Part shown: positions 14,803 to 62,463 of the stretch, piece by piece | Numbering within the stretch: the stretch's first letter is position 1 | Layout: every line of letters starts with the position of its first letter | Assembly (NCBI GenBank): GCA_016926255.1 | Contig: JAFGOY010000017.1 | Location: 1 to 64,000 of the forward strand | Source: Anaerolineae bacterium | Lineage (GTDB): Bacteria; Chloroflexota; Anaerolineae; Aggregatilineales; UBA3940 | Direction of reading: 5' to 3' | Length of the DNA stretch: 64,000 nt | Made by a program: the position numbers and the translations under genes | Notes under the pieces: model-generated | Databases searched by the model: none | What the model saw: only the letters and a program-made list of their open reading frames with translations | What the model was told of the DNA's origin: nothing

Positions 14803-14865
14803 TTTTGGGGGATAGGATTCGCGGAACAATCCCGGAGCAATGAATCTCAAGAAAGTGCGATATGA

Positions 14866-14930
14866 CGACCCCCTCTGGGCCTACGGCCCATCTCCCCCAA
14901 ACCTGGGGGCGATCAGGGCTGGCTTTTTTA
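14866..14930. repeat. Copy of CCCCCTCTGGG..GGGGGCGATCAGGG element
   Basis: CCCCCTCTGGGCCTACGGCCCATCTCCCCCAAACCTGGGGGCGATCAGGG-type sequence with nested hairpins (GGGCC/GGCCC and CCCCC/GGGGG) followed by GCTGGCTTTTTT. It is most similar to the copy at 23529-23592. It lies between the merR start and the lipoprotein gene's terminator. Confidence 0.65.
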
Positions 14931-23271: not shown

Positions 23272-23330
23272 AAGCCTATACGAAATTCGCTCCGCGACCT
23301 TCGTATAGGAAGGTGTGCGGTGAGATCATA

Positions 23331-23379
23331 TGCAGCCCTCTATGATGCCGTCAGCTATAGAGGGCTGCATTTTGTTTTG
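23331..23379 (+). terminator. Rho-independent terminator after the STAND regulator
   Basis: A perfect 13-bp stem (TGCAGCCCTCTAT 23331-23343 with 23357-23369) and 13-nt loop, followed by TTTTGTTTTG. Upstream, a second inverted repeat CCTATACGAA/TTCGTATAGG (23275-23309) follows directly after the stop codon. Confidence 0.85.
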
Positions 23380-23404
23380 TCGAATATCACCGGAGTGATT
23401 TTGT

Positions 23405-23690
23405 ACCTGGGGATAAATCCCCAGGCTACAATCGATAGGTCGCAGCGTGCCCCTTCGGGTCACCTACGACGAGCCGCCAACTGGTCGGCTCAGTCAAACT
23501 GAACGGAGGATAAATCCTCCGATATTCCGTCCCCCTCTGGCTCCTTCGGAGCCATCTCCCCCAAACCTGGGGGCGATTGGGGTTGGCTTTGTTTGATACG
23601 GAATGTAAAGACAGGCTGTTCGGCTGACAATACCAGCGTTCAATTACGGACAAGCCCTGAAGCCGCCGGGCTAAAAGCGATATGTCGTCA
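23405..23690. repeat. Cluster of four intergenic palindrome families
   Basis: From left: CTGGGGATAAATCCCCAG (23406-23424), a GGTCGCAGCG..GGAGGATAAATCCTCC segment, the CCCCCTCTGG..GGGGGCGATTGGGGTTGG element (23529-23592) and CCTGAAGCCGCCGGGCTAAAAGCG (23655-23680). The first and last recur at 60384 and 13918/57930. There is no gene in this gap. Confidence 0.6.
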
Positions 23691-23749
23691 CGGGGGCGAG
23701 GCCGTTGGACGAGCTTATTGGGTGTTCAGCCTATCAATCCTTCATATAT

Positions 23750-24301
23750 CTATTTTTTCGAATCCCTTCTTACAATTGTCACCGGAATAATAAAAGGGGT
23801 TTTCTTTTTGTATTCGAGATAATCACTTCCAAATCTCATTTCCAATTCTTTTTCCTCGATTATTTTCAAGTAACCAATTAATATCCCGGCAAATATAGCG
23901 ACTGCTATCAATGCGGCAAACGATCCGATCAATATGGAGATTCCAACATAGGCAGTTACTGTTCCCGATGTCATTGGATTTCTACAGTATTTAAATGGGC
24001 CAACAATCAGAAGTTTTTTAGTTGGCAGCATAGGAAAAGGTGTTCCCGATGCCAGCCTGATTTGAATTACTATTGTCCACATGGCAATGAAACCACCAAC
24101 TATTATTGCCATGACGCCAATGATAATATTTCCCAATCCATGATAGAACGAACTGATTCCGAGGTAATTGTCGACTTGCGGTGACACAAAAACCAGGAAG
24201 GCCGGAATCATTATTAGAAATATCAATGCACCAATTACTAATGCCAATATGCGGTTTTTATTTGAACTATCTTGATTCTGCCACTTTTGGAAATTGTTCA
24301 T
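23750..24301 (-). CDS. ICMT/PEMT-like membrane methyltransferase
   Basis: A 183-residue integral membrane protein with about four helices, ending in the isoprenylcysteine-carboxyl-methyltransferase signature: LLIVGPFKYCRNPMTSGTVTAYVGI, then IIEEKELEMRFGSDYLEYKKKTPF. Relatives methylate small lipophilic or thiol substrates with SAM; the substrate is unknown. GC content is visibly lower (about 38%) than in neighbours, a sign of horizontal transfer. It starts 29 bp after an attC-like palindrome and a lone GTCCAAC core-like site lies 39 bp past its stop, consistent with a mobile cassette. Confidence 0.8.
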   Translation of the reverse strand: MNNFQKWQNQDSSNKNRILALVIGALIFLIMIPAFLVFVSPQVDNYLGISSFYHGLGNIIIGVMAIIVGGFIAMWTIVIQIRLASGTPFPMLPTKKLLIVGPFKYCRNPMTSGTVTAYVGISILIGSFAALIAVAIFAGILIGYLKIIEEKELEMRFGSDYLEYKKKTPFIIPVTIVRRDSKK

Positions 24302-24330
24302 ATCAGCCTCTCAAAATCGGTTTAAAAATT

Positions 24331-24404
24331 GGCTACCTAACATCCAGGTTCAGTCGCGTTGCGGAGCGCAGCGGAGCAAGGTCGGCTGCAACTTGTAGGT
24401 AGCC
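24331..24404 (-). other. attC-like recombination site B (integron cassette-type palindrome)
   Basis: A 74-bp imperfect palindrome. Read on the minus strand it ends with GTTAGGT, a perfect GTTRRRY core, and begins with ACCTACA, a one-base-decayed RYYYAAC. Outer arms GGCTACCTA/TAGGTAGCC pair; inner arms CGACTGAAC/CGGCTGCAAC pair with one unpaired base and one mismatch, as expected of extrahelical bases in attC. The tip is TTGC..GCAA. It sits 33 bp after the stop of the methyltransferase gene. Confidence 0.6.
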
Positions 24405-24437
24405 ACCTGTCAGGCTGTAAGCGAGCGTCTTCTCCAA

Positions 24438-25190
24438 TCATGCTTTCTGTCCCACGAAGATGGTAAGCGGGTAGTCTCCGTCATTCAGAAGGTAGGGGTC
24501 GTAGATGCCGTCCAGGTTGGTTCTCTGGATGGCGATCCCGGCATCCATAAAAACTTTCTCCCACGCTGCCAGCGAGAAAAGACCGAGCACATGACGATCG
24601 GTGTGAATGGTCAACTCTCCCTGTTCACGGATCAAATATACAAGCGCGGCCTCGTACGTATTGGGGCGAAACGGGGTGATGTAATTGTTCTCGAATAAAG
24701 TCACATGGATGCCATCCTTTTCACCGGTGTAGGCAAAATTATTGTTTTGAAAGGTCTCTTCTGTTTTTGCCACCACGAGTAAAACACCGCCCATTTTGAG
24801 ATGCATCACTGCGGTCTGAATGGCTTGCCGAAGATCGTCCAGCGAGGTCATGTAGTCGATGCTGTCTGGAATGACCACAGCATCAAACTGGCGATTCAAT
24901 CGCAGTGTCCGCATATCGCCTTCAAGGTATTCGATGTCAGGATGCGCAGCGCGCGCTTTGTCCAGCATGCCCCGACTGAGATCGACACCGGTTACAGTAA
25001 AATGCCGCTTGAAGATCGTGTCATGGCCGCCTGCGCCGCACCCCAGATGCAGCAGCGTGACCGGCGGTTCCGCCGCAGTGCGGTTGATCAGGTCGATGTA
25101 GACCAGGGTTTCGTCTTCGTACTCTGCCGGGTCTGCCAGCAAATCTTCAGTCCAGGCAAGATCGTTGTATGCAAGCCACGTCGAGGCCAA
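24438..25190 (-). CDS. Class I SAM-dependent methyltransferase in cassette-like setting
   Basis: A 250-residue methyltransferase: motif I VTLLHLGCGAGGHD, VTGVDLSRGMLDKARAAHPDIEYLEGDMRTLRL, then FDAVVIPDSIDYM. The C-terminal half has a beta-rich insert (FEN NYITPFRPNTYEAALVYLIREQGELTIHTDRH region) of unknown specificity. The start is inferred as TTG at 25190, with AAGGAG 7 nt upstream; the frame continues upstream through a palindrome and is not coding there. It lies between two attC-like palindromes, 19 bp from one and 33 bp from the other. Confidence 0.8.
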   Translation of the reverse strand: MASTWLAYNDLAWTEDLLADPAEYEDETLVYIDLINRTAAEPPVTLLHLGCGAGGHDTIFKRHFTVTGVDLSRGMLDKARAAHPDIEYLEGDMRTLRLNRQFDAVVIPDSIDYMTSLDDLRQAIQTAVMHLKMGGVLLVVAKTEETFQNNNFAYTGEKDGIHVTLFENNYITPFRPNTYEAALVYLIREQGELTIHTDRHVLGLFSLAAWEKVFMDAGIAIQRTNLDGIYDPYLLNDGDYPLTIFVGQKA

Positions 25191-25209
25191 ATCAGTCTCC
25201 TTTTGAGTG

Positions 25210-25320
25210 GCTAACGCGCTGCGTGTCAGCCACCGCGCCCGAAAATATATACCGTCCTGATCGATGCAGCCGCCACGGGCGCGAGTCGCCTGTACGTGCT
25301 TTTGGGTGCGCAGCGTTAGC
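25210..25320 (-). other. attC-like recombination site A
   Basis: A 111-bp imperfect palindrome. On the minus strand it starts CGCTAACGCTGCG and ends CGCAGCGCGTTAGCC: outer arms pair except for a 2-nt bulge, and GTTAGCC is one base off the GTTRRRY core. Inner arms CGGGCGCG/CGCGCCCG pair, leaving an AT-rich tip. It lies 19 bp after the DUF998 stop and 19 bp before the methyltransferase start. Confidence 0.5.
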
Positions 25321-25339
25321 GGCAGAGCAACCCACCGGC

Positions 25340-26008
25340 TTATCCCCCGACGCCGCTGAAAGAGTCCACGCCCCTGCTGGACAGCAGCAGGAGGTATATC
25401 GCCAGGGCCATCACCCACACCAGGAAGCTGTAGACCATAGTCCGTTCCTGCGTTCCTATCAACGCCGCCGTTTCTTCTGCGGGACCCGAGGCGGCCGTCG
25501 CGAACCTCAGGATAGCCAGAAAGACGTAGCTCACAGGTATGCCAATCGACAGGATGCGAAGCCAACTGCTGAACGCTGCGGCCCCGATCACCATTGCCAG
25601 TACGAAGCAGACGACACTGAGGAACATGATGATCACACCCGCGCTGCCGAAGATTGGTCTCTCACCAAAGCGGGTCGGGAAGAAGAGGGTGGCGATAAAC
25701 CCCGTTGTCGCATTCCCGATCAAGAGCCCGCCGACAATGCGCGGGAGAAGCGCCTGTCCCGCCAGCCGCCAGGCACCGACTCCGAAAGCGGTCATGAGCA
25801 TGCTGGCCACGAGAGTAAGCGAGACGACGAGCGATCTCGTCGGAGAACCGGCAGCGCTCAGTTCGCTCATGGACTGGGCCGCGAAACTGTAGCCTTTCAG
25901 GAGCCTCCCTGCGAGCCAATCCGTCCCCAGATAAAACAGCGGAGAGAGGATGCCACAAGAGAGCAATATCTTTTGCAACATATTTGGCAAACCAACAGTC
26001 GTTTCCAT
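25340..26008 (-). CDS. DUF998-like membrane protein
   Basis: A 222-residue protein with six membrane helices and the DUF998 opening (CGILSPLFYLGTDWLAGRLLKGYSFAAQSMSELSAAGSPTRSLV). Function is unknown in the family. It starts with ATG after GGGAGAAG. A consensus TATAAT lies about 60 bp upstream with a poor -35. It is the first gene of the leftward three-gene array whose spacers look like attC sites. Confidence 0.8.
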   Translation of the reverse strand: METTVGLPNMLQKILLSCGILSPLFYLGTDWLAGRLLKGYSFAAQSMSELSAAGSPTRSLVVSLTLVASMLMTAFGVGAWRLAGQALLPRIVGGLLIGNATTGFIATLFFPTRFGERPIFGSAGVIIMFLSVVCFVLAMVIGAAAFSSWLRILSIGIPVSYVFLAILRFATAASGPAEETAALIGTQERTMVYSFLVWVMALAIYLLLLSSRGVDSFSGVGG

Positions 26009-26068
26009 TATGATCTTCTCCCTATGATGTGTCCATACTGAATATAACTTTACTTGCGCCCCACAGTT

Positions 26069-34999: not shown

Positions 35000-35062
35000 A
35001 GCACCCCCTCTGTCTCCTTCGGAGACATCTCCCCCACAGGGGGCGATCAGGGAGCAGCGCTG
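35000..35062. repeat. Copy of the CCCCCTCTG..GGGGGCGATCAGGG element
   Basis: CACCCCCTCTGTCTCCTTCGGAGACATCTCCCCC and GGGGGCGATCAGGG with an inner GTCTCC/GGAGAC hairpin. It lies at the 3' end of the yggS-like gene and is the shortest member of the family. Confidence 0.6.
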
Positions 35063-60371: not shown

Positions 60372-60383
60372 GGGGCGGCATAC

Positions 60384-60465
60384 CTGGGGATAAATCCCCA
60401 GGCTAAAAGCGATACGTCGACCTGCGGTCGACTCCAGAGGGCGGGGACAAGCCCCGCCCCTACGA
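60384..60465. repeat. REP cluster between peptidase and WD40 genes
   Basis: CTGGGGATAAATCCCCAGGCTAAAAGCGATACGTCGACCTGCGGTCGAC-type sequence, then GGGCGGGGACAAGCCCCGCCCCTAC. The three palindromes match single copies at 23406, 57900 and 6506, which shows that families are combined here. Confidence 0.7.
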
Positions 60466-60504
60466 GACGGATCGAAAAAATCGGCCCGTGGCCGGGAGGG
60501 TATG

Positions 60505-62463
60505 ATGTCGATGCGAAAAGCGATTGTGATAGTCGGCGGGCTGATGTTGATCGGCGTGCTGGCTGGCTGTACATCCGATGAGGGGCTGTCCGTGACGGCT
60601 GCCCCTCAGGTCGATCCTCCGACGGTGGCACCGACGGTGATCGAGACGGTGGCGGTCGAGGCGACGGTCACCGCGAGTCCAACACTGGCGGAAACGCCGG
60701 TGCCGGTCATCACGCTGCCGTATATCCCGATAGTACCAGAAGGCGCAGTCGCCCGTATTGGGATGGGTTATCTCAGGGAGGCGGCGCTTTCTTCGGATGG
60801 ACAGTATCTGGCCGTAAGCACGAGTGTCGGGACATTCCTATATCGGATGGACACGTACGAAAAGGTGTGGGGTATTGATCAGATAACATCTTATCTGACC
60901 TTCTCGCCCGACAGCCGGTTGCTGGCCGGTCGGCGGTCAGAGGATTTTGTGCTGTGGGAAGTCGAGACCGGGAAATTGCTGCAATCCTTTGAGACTAATT
61001 ATGTAGCCTTTTCGCCCGATTCAAGCAGATTGGCTTACGGTTCTAATAACAGTGTCATCGTCTGGAACATCCTGAGTGGTACCGTTGATATATCCCTGAC
61101 CGGGCATTCCGACGAAGTTACTTCAGCGACATTCGTGACTGAAGATATCCTTGCTACTGGGGGGGGAGACGCGAAGGTAATCCTGTGGAACCTCGCAGCG
61201 GGTGAGATAGCACGAGTGATAGAGGAGCATGAGAGTCCCGTCCATGCCCTGGTTGTATCACCAGACGGGCAGATACTTGTGACCGGTTCAGACAAAAAGA
61301 CTGTGCTGTGGGATGCGCTGACCGGAGAAAAGTTACTCACAATAGATGATCGCTATGTCGATCCAATATTCTCTCCAGACGGAGCTCTGTTGACAGCCAA
61401 CAATGAAGACTGGATCACTCAAATCTGGGACGTTAGCAGTGGGCAACTGCTGCGCCATCTGGATGAACTTGGCCATGTGACAAGCACGGCTTTTTCACCG
61501 GATGGGTACCTGTATGTGGCCAGTCGCCAGACTAACGCCATTCACAAGATCGATCCCCGCACCGGCGAGACGATCTTGATACTGGATGGATTCACCAATG
61601 AGATTGACCATGCGGTCTTATTGTCTGATGGATCACAACTGCTCACCGCTGGATCGAGTTATGGAGAAACAACAGTCAGGCTGATCGATCTGAGGAGTGG
61701 ACAGGTTATCTTCGAAAAGAGCGGCTTCACCGAAAGAGACCTGCAGGATGCAGACATCTCGCCGGATGGGAGTCTCGTTGCAGTCGGTGTTGATGCTTCC
61801 GCCGAATCCGCCGAGGAAGCCATATTTCTTTGGGACACCTTCACCGGGGAAATGGTCGCTGCTTTGCCAGGACACTACCCCGAAGTTGAATTCTCCCCCG
61901 ATGGACGGTGGCTGGCGTACCGGTCAGCAAGTTCAACCATTACCCTCTGGGACGTCGGGACTCATCAGCCGGTATTCGAAATCAAAGGGCCAAGCGATGA
62001 ACTGGTGTTTTCACCCTATGGAGAAATTCTGGCTGCAGAAGATGGCCAATCGATCGTTTTGTACGAACTGCCGGACGGGGATATCTTCCAAGAATTCAAG
62101 TATTCTCCCTATGTCTCCACGATGACCTTCTCACCTGACGGTACTCAACTGGCCGCCGGATTGTGCCCGGTTTCAAGAGATGACGATGCAGTCATCAGAA
62201 TCTGGGACATTGCCAGTGGTCAACTTCTTCATGAGTTGTCTGGACACCAGCTATGCATTGACAGCTTGGGCTACTCACCCGGTGGAGATATTCTTGCATC
62301 CGCTTCTTATGATCAAGCTTTTGTCTGGGATATTGAGACTGAGCAACTGGTAAAGATACTACCGGGGAGATACATAGTAAAAAGTGTAGACTATAGCCCG
62401 GACGGAACGCTGCTGATTTCCGGTTTGTGGGATGGCACGGTCATCCTCTGGCCGGTGGAGTAG
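60505..62463 (+). CDS. WD40-repeat lipoprotein, lower-GC paralogue
   Basis: About 652 residues. Lipobox LIGVLAGC, a stalk rich in T, V and P, then ~13 WD40-type repeats (AALSSDGQYLAVSTSVGTFLYRM, LVVSPDGQILVTGSDKKTVLWD, VDYSPDGTLLISGLWDGTVILWP). The 60780-62460 part is visibly poorer in G+C (near 50%) than the paralogue at 55108. Start: ATG at 60505, one of three clustered ATGs, given GGAGGG a few bases upstream. The terminator at 62483 marks its end, or the converging gene's. Confidence 0.85.
   Translation: MSMRKAIVIVGGLMLIGVLAGCTSDEGLSVTAAPQVDPPTVAPTVIETVAVEATVTASPTLAETPVPVITLPYIPIVPEGAVARIGMGYLREAALSSDGQYLAVSTSVGTFLYRMDTYEKVWGIDQITSYLTFSPDSRLLAGRRSEDFVLWEVETGKLLQSFETNYVAFSPDSSRLAYGSNNSVIVWNILSGTVDISLTGHSDEVTSATFVTEDILATGGGDAKVILWNLAAGEIARVIEEHESPVHALVVSPDGQILVTGSDKKTVLWDALTGEKLLTIDDRYVDPIFSPDGALLTANNEDWITQIWDVSSGQLLRHLDELGHVTSTAFSPDGYLYVASRQTNAIHKIDPRTGETILILDGFTNEIDHAVLLSDGSQLLTAGSSYGETTVRLIDLRSGQVIFEKSGFTERDLQDADISPDGSLVAVGVDASAESAEEAIFLWDTFTGEMVAALPGHYPEVEFSPDGRWLAYRSASSTITLWDVGTHQPVFEIKGPSDELVFSPYGEILAAEDGQSIVLYELPDGDIFQEFKYSPYVSTMTFSPDGTQLAAGLCPVSRDDDAVIRIWDIASGQLLHELSGHQLCIDSLGYSPGGDILASASYDQAFVWDIETEQLVKILPGRYIVKSVDYSPDGTLLISGLWDGTVILWPVE

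Follow-up and report, generated by a model that had tools for sequence, protein, structure and literature searches.

Taken together, our analyses indicate that three small leftward genes in the window (the whole stretch of 64,000 nucleotides analysed here) very probably form a CALIN, in which a complete methyltransferase cassette is joined by the 5' end of an ICMT-like cassette and probably by the 3' end of a DUF998 cassette. Integrase-less cassette clusters are known as CALIN (PMC12444791, PMC9024848, PMC8618304), and integrons are on record in Chloroflexota (PMC8618304); the locus is thus a new example of an already known kind of element. The first-pass annotation had read the region both as an array of three cassettes and as a CALIN. 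The methyltransferase cassette is now proven and the other two are not proven complete; for the CALIN, the lack of an integrase over threshold and site B are upheld, and site A is only probable. The features are as follows.

25340-26008, minus strand: DUF998 membrane protein gene (Pfam PF06197, 4e-12)
25209-25307, outer palindrome to 25316, minus strand: site A, a probable degenerate attC (joint score, 3'-half matches), with R' GTTAGCC at 25209-25215, L' side GTGGCTG, an 11-nt spacer and the left part ACCCAAA-8 nt-CAGGCGAC
24341-25214, minus strand: complete methyltransferase cassette, 874 bp, from the T of G^TT in site A to the G of G^TT in site B
25197-25202, minus strand: AAGGAG, Shine-Dalgarno-like by its sequence, between the cassette end and the TTG start
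24438-25190, minus strand: SAM-dependent methyltransferase (Methyltransf_25; PF13649, 1.8e-14), 250 aa, TTG start
24335-24404, palindrome from 24331, minus strand: site B, attC by covariance models, joint score and predicted fold, with R'' GGCTACC at 24398-24404, L'' CAGCCG plus a bulged A, L' CGACTG and R' GTTAGGT at 24335-24341
23750-24301, minus strand: PEMT/ICMT-like membrane methyltransferase, 183 aa (PF04191, 3.6e-11)
23687-23710, minus strand: possible left half of a lost attC, GTCCAAC-9 nt-CCCGTGAC (left-half score)

In gene direction, on the minus strand, the order is DUF998, site A, methyltransferase, site B and ICMT-like gene, and the two intergenic gaps, first put at about 150 and 135 bp, measure 149 and 136 bp and each hold a palindrome. 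The methyltransferase and ICMT-like genes start 18 and 33 nt behind R' boxes, respectively, and both have a Shine-Dalgarno-like sequence, the arrangement also seen in compact cassettes. The composition of the ICMT-like gene is foreign, as had been noticed: its GC content is 37.5% (GC3 0.375), compared with 53-64% in 15 further genes sampled from the window outside the cluster, while that of the DUF998 gene is host-like at 58.9%.

The main evidence for a cassette comes from L098 (VFZG01000008.1), a contig of a metagenome-assembled genome named Acidimicrobiia (the taxonomic label is that of the record), where a methyltransferase with its attC is the first cassette, adjoining an integron integrase that scores 425 bits with TIGR02249 (cut-off 265). 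The window methyltransferase shares 80.4% amino acid identity over all 250 residues with that encoded at L098:6245-6997, and the DNA is 81% identical over 886 bp. The homology runs from GTTAGCC (25215, site A) to just past GTTAGG (24341 onwards, site B) and no further, and in this alignment its limits coincide with the two cassette ends predicted from G^TT cleavage. The two cassettes have in common the methyltransferase, the attC type, the ends, the TTG start and the Shine-Dalgarno-like sequence (AAAGGAG in the aligned L098 segment). They differ in that L098 has an adjoining intI and an intact R'' GGCTAAC, whereas the window cassette has no integrase and R'' GGCTACC and is followed by the ICMT-like gene. 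Because the same cassette stands first after intI in L098, the methyltransferase and site B are one complete cassette: a single compact gene and an attC, bounded by G^TT cores, that also occurs beside an integrase. The R' of site A belongs to this cassette itself. In agreement with this, the two ends show the complementarity sought: in 72% of 50 real-array cassettes, R'' is complementary at all 7 positions to the R' of its own cassette (37% within one array site, 19% at random), and R'' of site B and R' of site A match at 6/7, those in L098 at 7/7. As judged from sequence, then, the methyltransferase would be a genuine mobile cassette of an integron, with exact ends. Its dN/dS between the window and L098 is 0.13, and purifying selection has acted on it. 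Neither this gene nor the ICMT-like gene had a relative in viral contigs or plasmids at the limits used.

To score the palindromes, attC sites were gathered from stretches beside integron integrases in genomes of the same class and used for covariance models built here from 18 (R1), 43 (R2) and 93 (R3) sites and for a joint scorer based on 43 sites, which was run over both strands of 124 kb of contig (about 248,000 strand-positions, exactly 247,480). R2 and the joint scorer were built without any use of the window. The attC-model check that had been proposed found site B: R2 gives it 21.3 bits (E 0.0028 for 124 kb), and with R3 it is the sole match in the whole genome at 31.6 bits (E 9e-4), a score biased upward since R3 was partly trained on sites picked by the site-B pattern, a bias that leaves R2 and the joint score unaffected. 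Strict R1 and genome-wide R2 missed site B, so that genome-wide searching for attC has limited sensitivity. The joint score of site B, 35.1, ranks first on both strands of the 124 kb; since no place in 784 kb of control strand-bases reaches 26 (12 places reach 20), site B is far beyond chance. A covariance match on contig C8 of the same genome falls within a coding gene and was not accepted as an attC.

Site B lies 33 bp past the methyltransferase stop, and its R' GTTAGGT fits GTTRRRY, both as first described. It forms an imperfect palindrome laid out as R''-L''-loop-L'-R', and its predicted bottom-strand fold (here the plus strand) resembles those in L082 and L098: the central spacer is unpaired and the two extrahelical bases are shared, which bears out the earlier mention of such bases. 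Two substitutions separate its core from the cores in L082 and L098, and R'' carries an A to C substitution relative to L098. On the strength of its layout, fold and scores, we identify site B as an attC site. Readings of site B as a chance hairpin or a REP element were rejected, as were BLAST matches to it in genomes G298 and G083, which proved to be unrelated sequence; BLAST of site B against relatives otherwise returned only chance matches of 16-29 nt, and no further copies of site A or B were found in 124 kb of contig.

Searching 257 Gb for the site-B pattern matched 22 records, with about 0.01 expected by our own estimate. These are labelled Chloroflexota, Acidobacteria, Nitrospira, Planctomycetota, Gemmatimonadetes, Burkholderiales and others; the attC models score all 22, and many lie within arrays of several attC sites. 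A 70-nt attC hairpin (GTTGCAGCCGACGTTGCTCCGCTGCGCTCCGCAACGCGGCTGAAC...) is near-identical at L082:674-743, L083:2022-2091, L090:684-753, L091:684-753, L094:2371-2440 and L098:7031-7100, in metagenome-assembled genomes labelled Chloroflexi, Gemmatimonadetes, Blastocatellia and Acidimicrobiia; such near-identity suggests cassette traffic between phyla.

Site A is a weaker case. Its joint score of 20.2 ranks second on both strands of the 124 kb, which is not significant alone genome-wide, but about 0.002 such matches are expected in this gap and strand (p about 0.002-0.008), and the covariance models recover a fragment only, at 10.6 bits. Its R' had been described as one base off the core; the box is indeed GTTAGCC, and this is a regular variant, present in 15/119 real attC sites. 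Over 23-24 nt the 3' half shows 91-92% identity to attC ends in G304 and G298, two genomes of the same family, and these were the only matches to it below E 0.01 among the other loci compared. Site A is therefore best described as probably a decayed attC.

No integron integrase over the TIGR02249 threshold was found anywhere in the assembly (4.6 Mb, 82 contigs, 96% complete), either near the cluster or at a distance, in line with the earlier observation and with the genome-wide search suggested with it; since the assembly is 96% complete and in 82 contigs, an integrase may have been missed. A complete integron, with intI and attI adjacent, was accordingly not seen, and the lossy genome-wide search with R3 found no other credible attC. 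Integrases over the TIGR02249 cut-off occur in 73/298 genomes of the class, with none among those sampled from the same order; G304, found later, has an integrase of 462 bits and many attC sites. In G304 the complete integrase lies on C371 (L154, a 4-kb contig) and the attC array on C180 (L153); the assembly seems to break within the array. Stable synteny had been named as evidence against an integron origin. Homologues of the PEMT and methyltransferase genes lie in separate genomes or, in G137, on separate contigs, so that the three genes do not form one block in relatives and the integron reading stands. The flank around MsrA is not syntenic in relatives, and an empty site is not demonstrable. 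The attC models that find site B, the missing syntenic block and the L098 cassette beside an integrase thus all support the integron reading.

Compared with CALIN as defined in 2016 and in IntegronFinder 2 (PMC9024848), the locus shares the gene-attC order, the single strand, the lack of an integrase found in the genome, the small number of cassettes and the foreign genes. It differs in having one strong and one degenerate attC and no third 3' end, and with B certain and A probable (weak in the covariance models) it is at the lower limit of at least two close attC sites in the same orientation. Proposed origins of CALIN are insertion in trans, intI loss and rearrangement (PMC8618304), and the cluster may accordingly have been inserted by an integrase from elsewhere or be left over from an integron after intI loss. 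That it is the remnant of a former resident integron is quite possible without being probable. G304 combines an integrase with an array of the family attC type, whose 3' half resembles that of site A, but the G304 and G298 integron contigs share only a weak 99-aa LuxR-type match with the locus, site B is of another, widespread attC type, and no other credible attC was found in the genome. The G304 integron differs further in its attC sites of about 130 nt, its complete integrase and its chromosomal surroundings. We tentatively entertain the other origin of the same CALIN, in which an integrase acting in trans would have inserted cassettes travelling between phyla at a chromosomal locus free of integrons (attG-type insertion); if so, one route of such transfer would be documented by an orthologous cassette that has exact ends in two genomes labelled as different phyla.

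A different and unlikely reading is that only the methyltransferase is foreign, as a single SALIN-like cassette inserted in trans at a secondary (attG-type) site next to DUF998, itself a resident gene, with site A being the junction plus a chance palindrome. Insertion at attG has been described by Loot et al. (2024), as cited in PMC12444791 and PMC11023631, site A fares poorly in covariance models, and the DUF998 gene has host-like GC and no boundary upstream. Yet with R' of site A held fixed, 0/400 real and 3/400 shuffled upstream contexts score as high as the actual one, which places its attC likeness beyond chance; the close match of its 3' half to same-family attC ends and the foreign composition of the ICMT-like gene directly behind the R' of site B also speak against this reading. 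The notion of ordinary chromosomal genes whose gaps hold chance palindromes, terminators or REP-like repeats is hardly credible and is already refuted for site B, for although short hairpins are common by chance and dispersed repeats lie nearby at 23400-23600, the window and the L098 integron share an exact cassette, every site-B-motif record scores as attC, and extra copies are absent from the 124 kb.

Returning to the CALIN, its outer ends are less well defined than its centre. The ICMT-like gene is read as a second cassette with an intact 5' end, and no attC was recognised behind it. The GTCCAAC word first noted 39 bp past the third gene is there (23704-23710, counted from the PEMT stop), but an attC is not demonstrated: the left half is weak, ranking 43 of 247,480, and the right half of the palindrome is absent, so that only one of the two halves of an attC is present. 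Among homologues in the class sample, the best for the ICMT-like gene (48%) is on contig C58 of genome G103, which carries attC sites. This contig has several of them at L112:559-4043, one scoring best in inverted orientation, together with two methyltransferase genes and a NUDIX gene; the homologue itself lies at L112:5267-5824, 1.2 kb beyond the attC region. For DUF998, a search of 199 class genomes at E 1e-10 returned no homologue. It is probably a cassette gene with site A as its attC; because no cassette-type boundary was recognised upstream of its start, it could be a resident gene.

Cassettes move as circles: the integrase binds the folded bottom strand of attC, cuts at G^TT of R', and joins the cassette to attI, attC or a secondary site. 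By this established biology, the bottom strand of the attC sites here would be the window plus strand, and an integron integrase would be predicted to cleave it at G^TT in R'. With R'' of site B mutated and no integron integrase found in the genome, the cluster is probably immobile by itself today; an incoming integrase might still act on it. The locus leaves the general picture of integrons unchanged. What it adds is one cassette present in genomes that carry labels of different phyla, and an illustration, from a lineage where the integrase is rare, that one decayed attC and one orthologous cassette in a distant integron suffice to recognise a cluster and prove its exact ends.

Finally, we note some minor features of the window, in which no Rfam or tRNA match was found. 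An ORF at 60502-62463 has a GC3 of 0.57, below that of the other genes sampled outside the cluster. A perfect 14-bp inverted repeat with a T-rich tail at 23330-23370, 3' of a LuxR-type regulator, is probably the terminator of that gene. Between the LuxR-type gene and the cluster, at 23404-23593, lie dispersed intergenic repeats with copies at 14858-14929, 35004-35047 and 60381-60419 and at L060:8865-8905 that are 84-92% alike over 39-74 bp, and these repeats may have played a part in eroding the cluster at its end.
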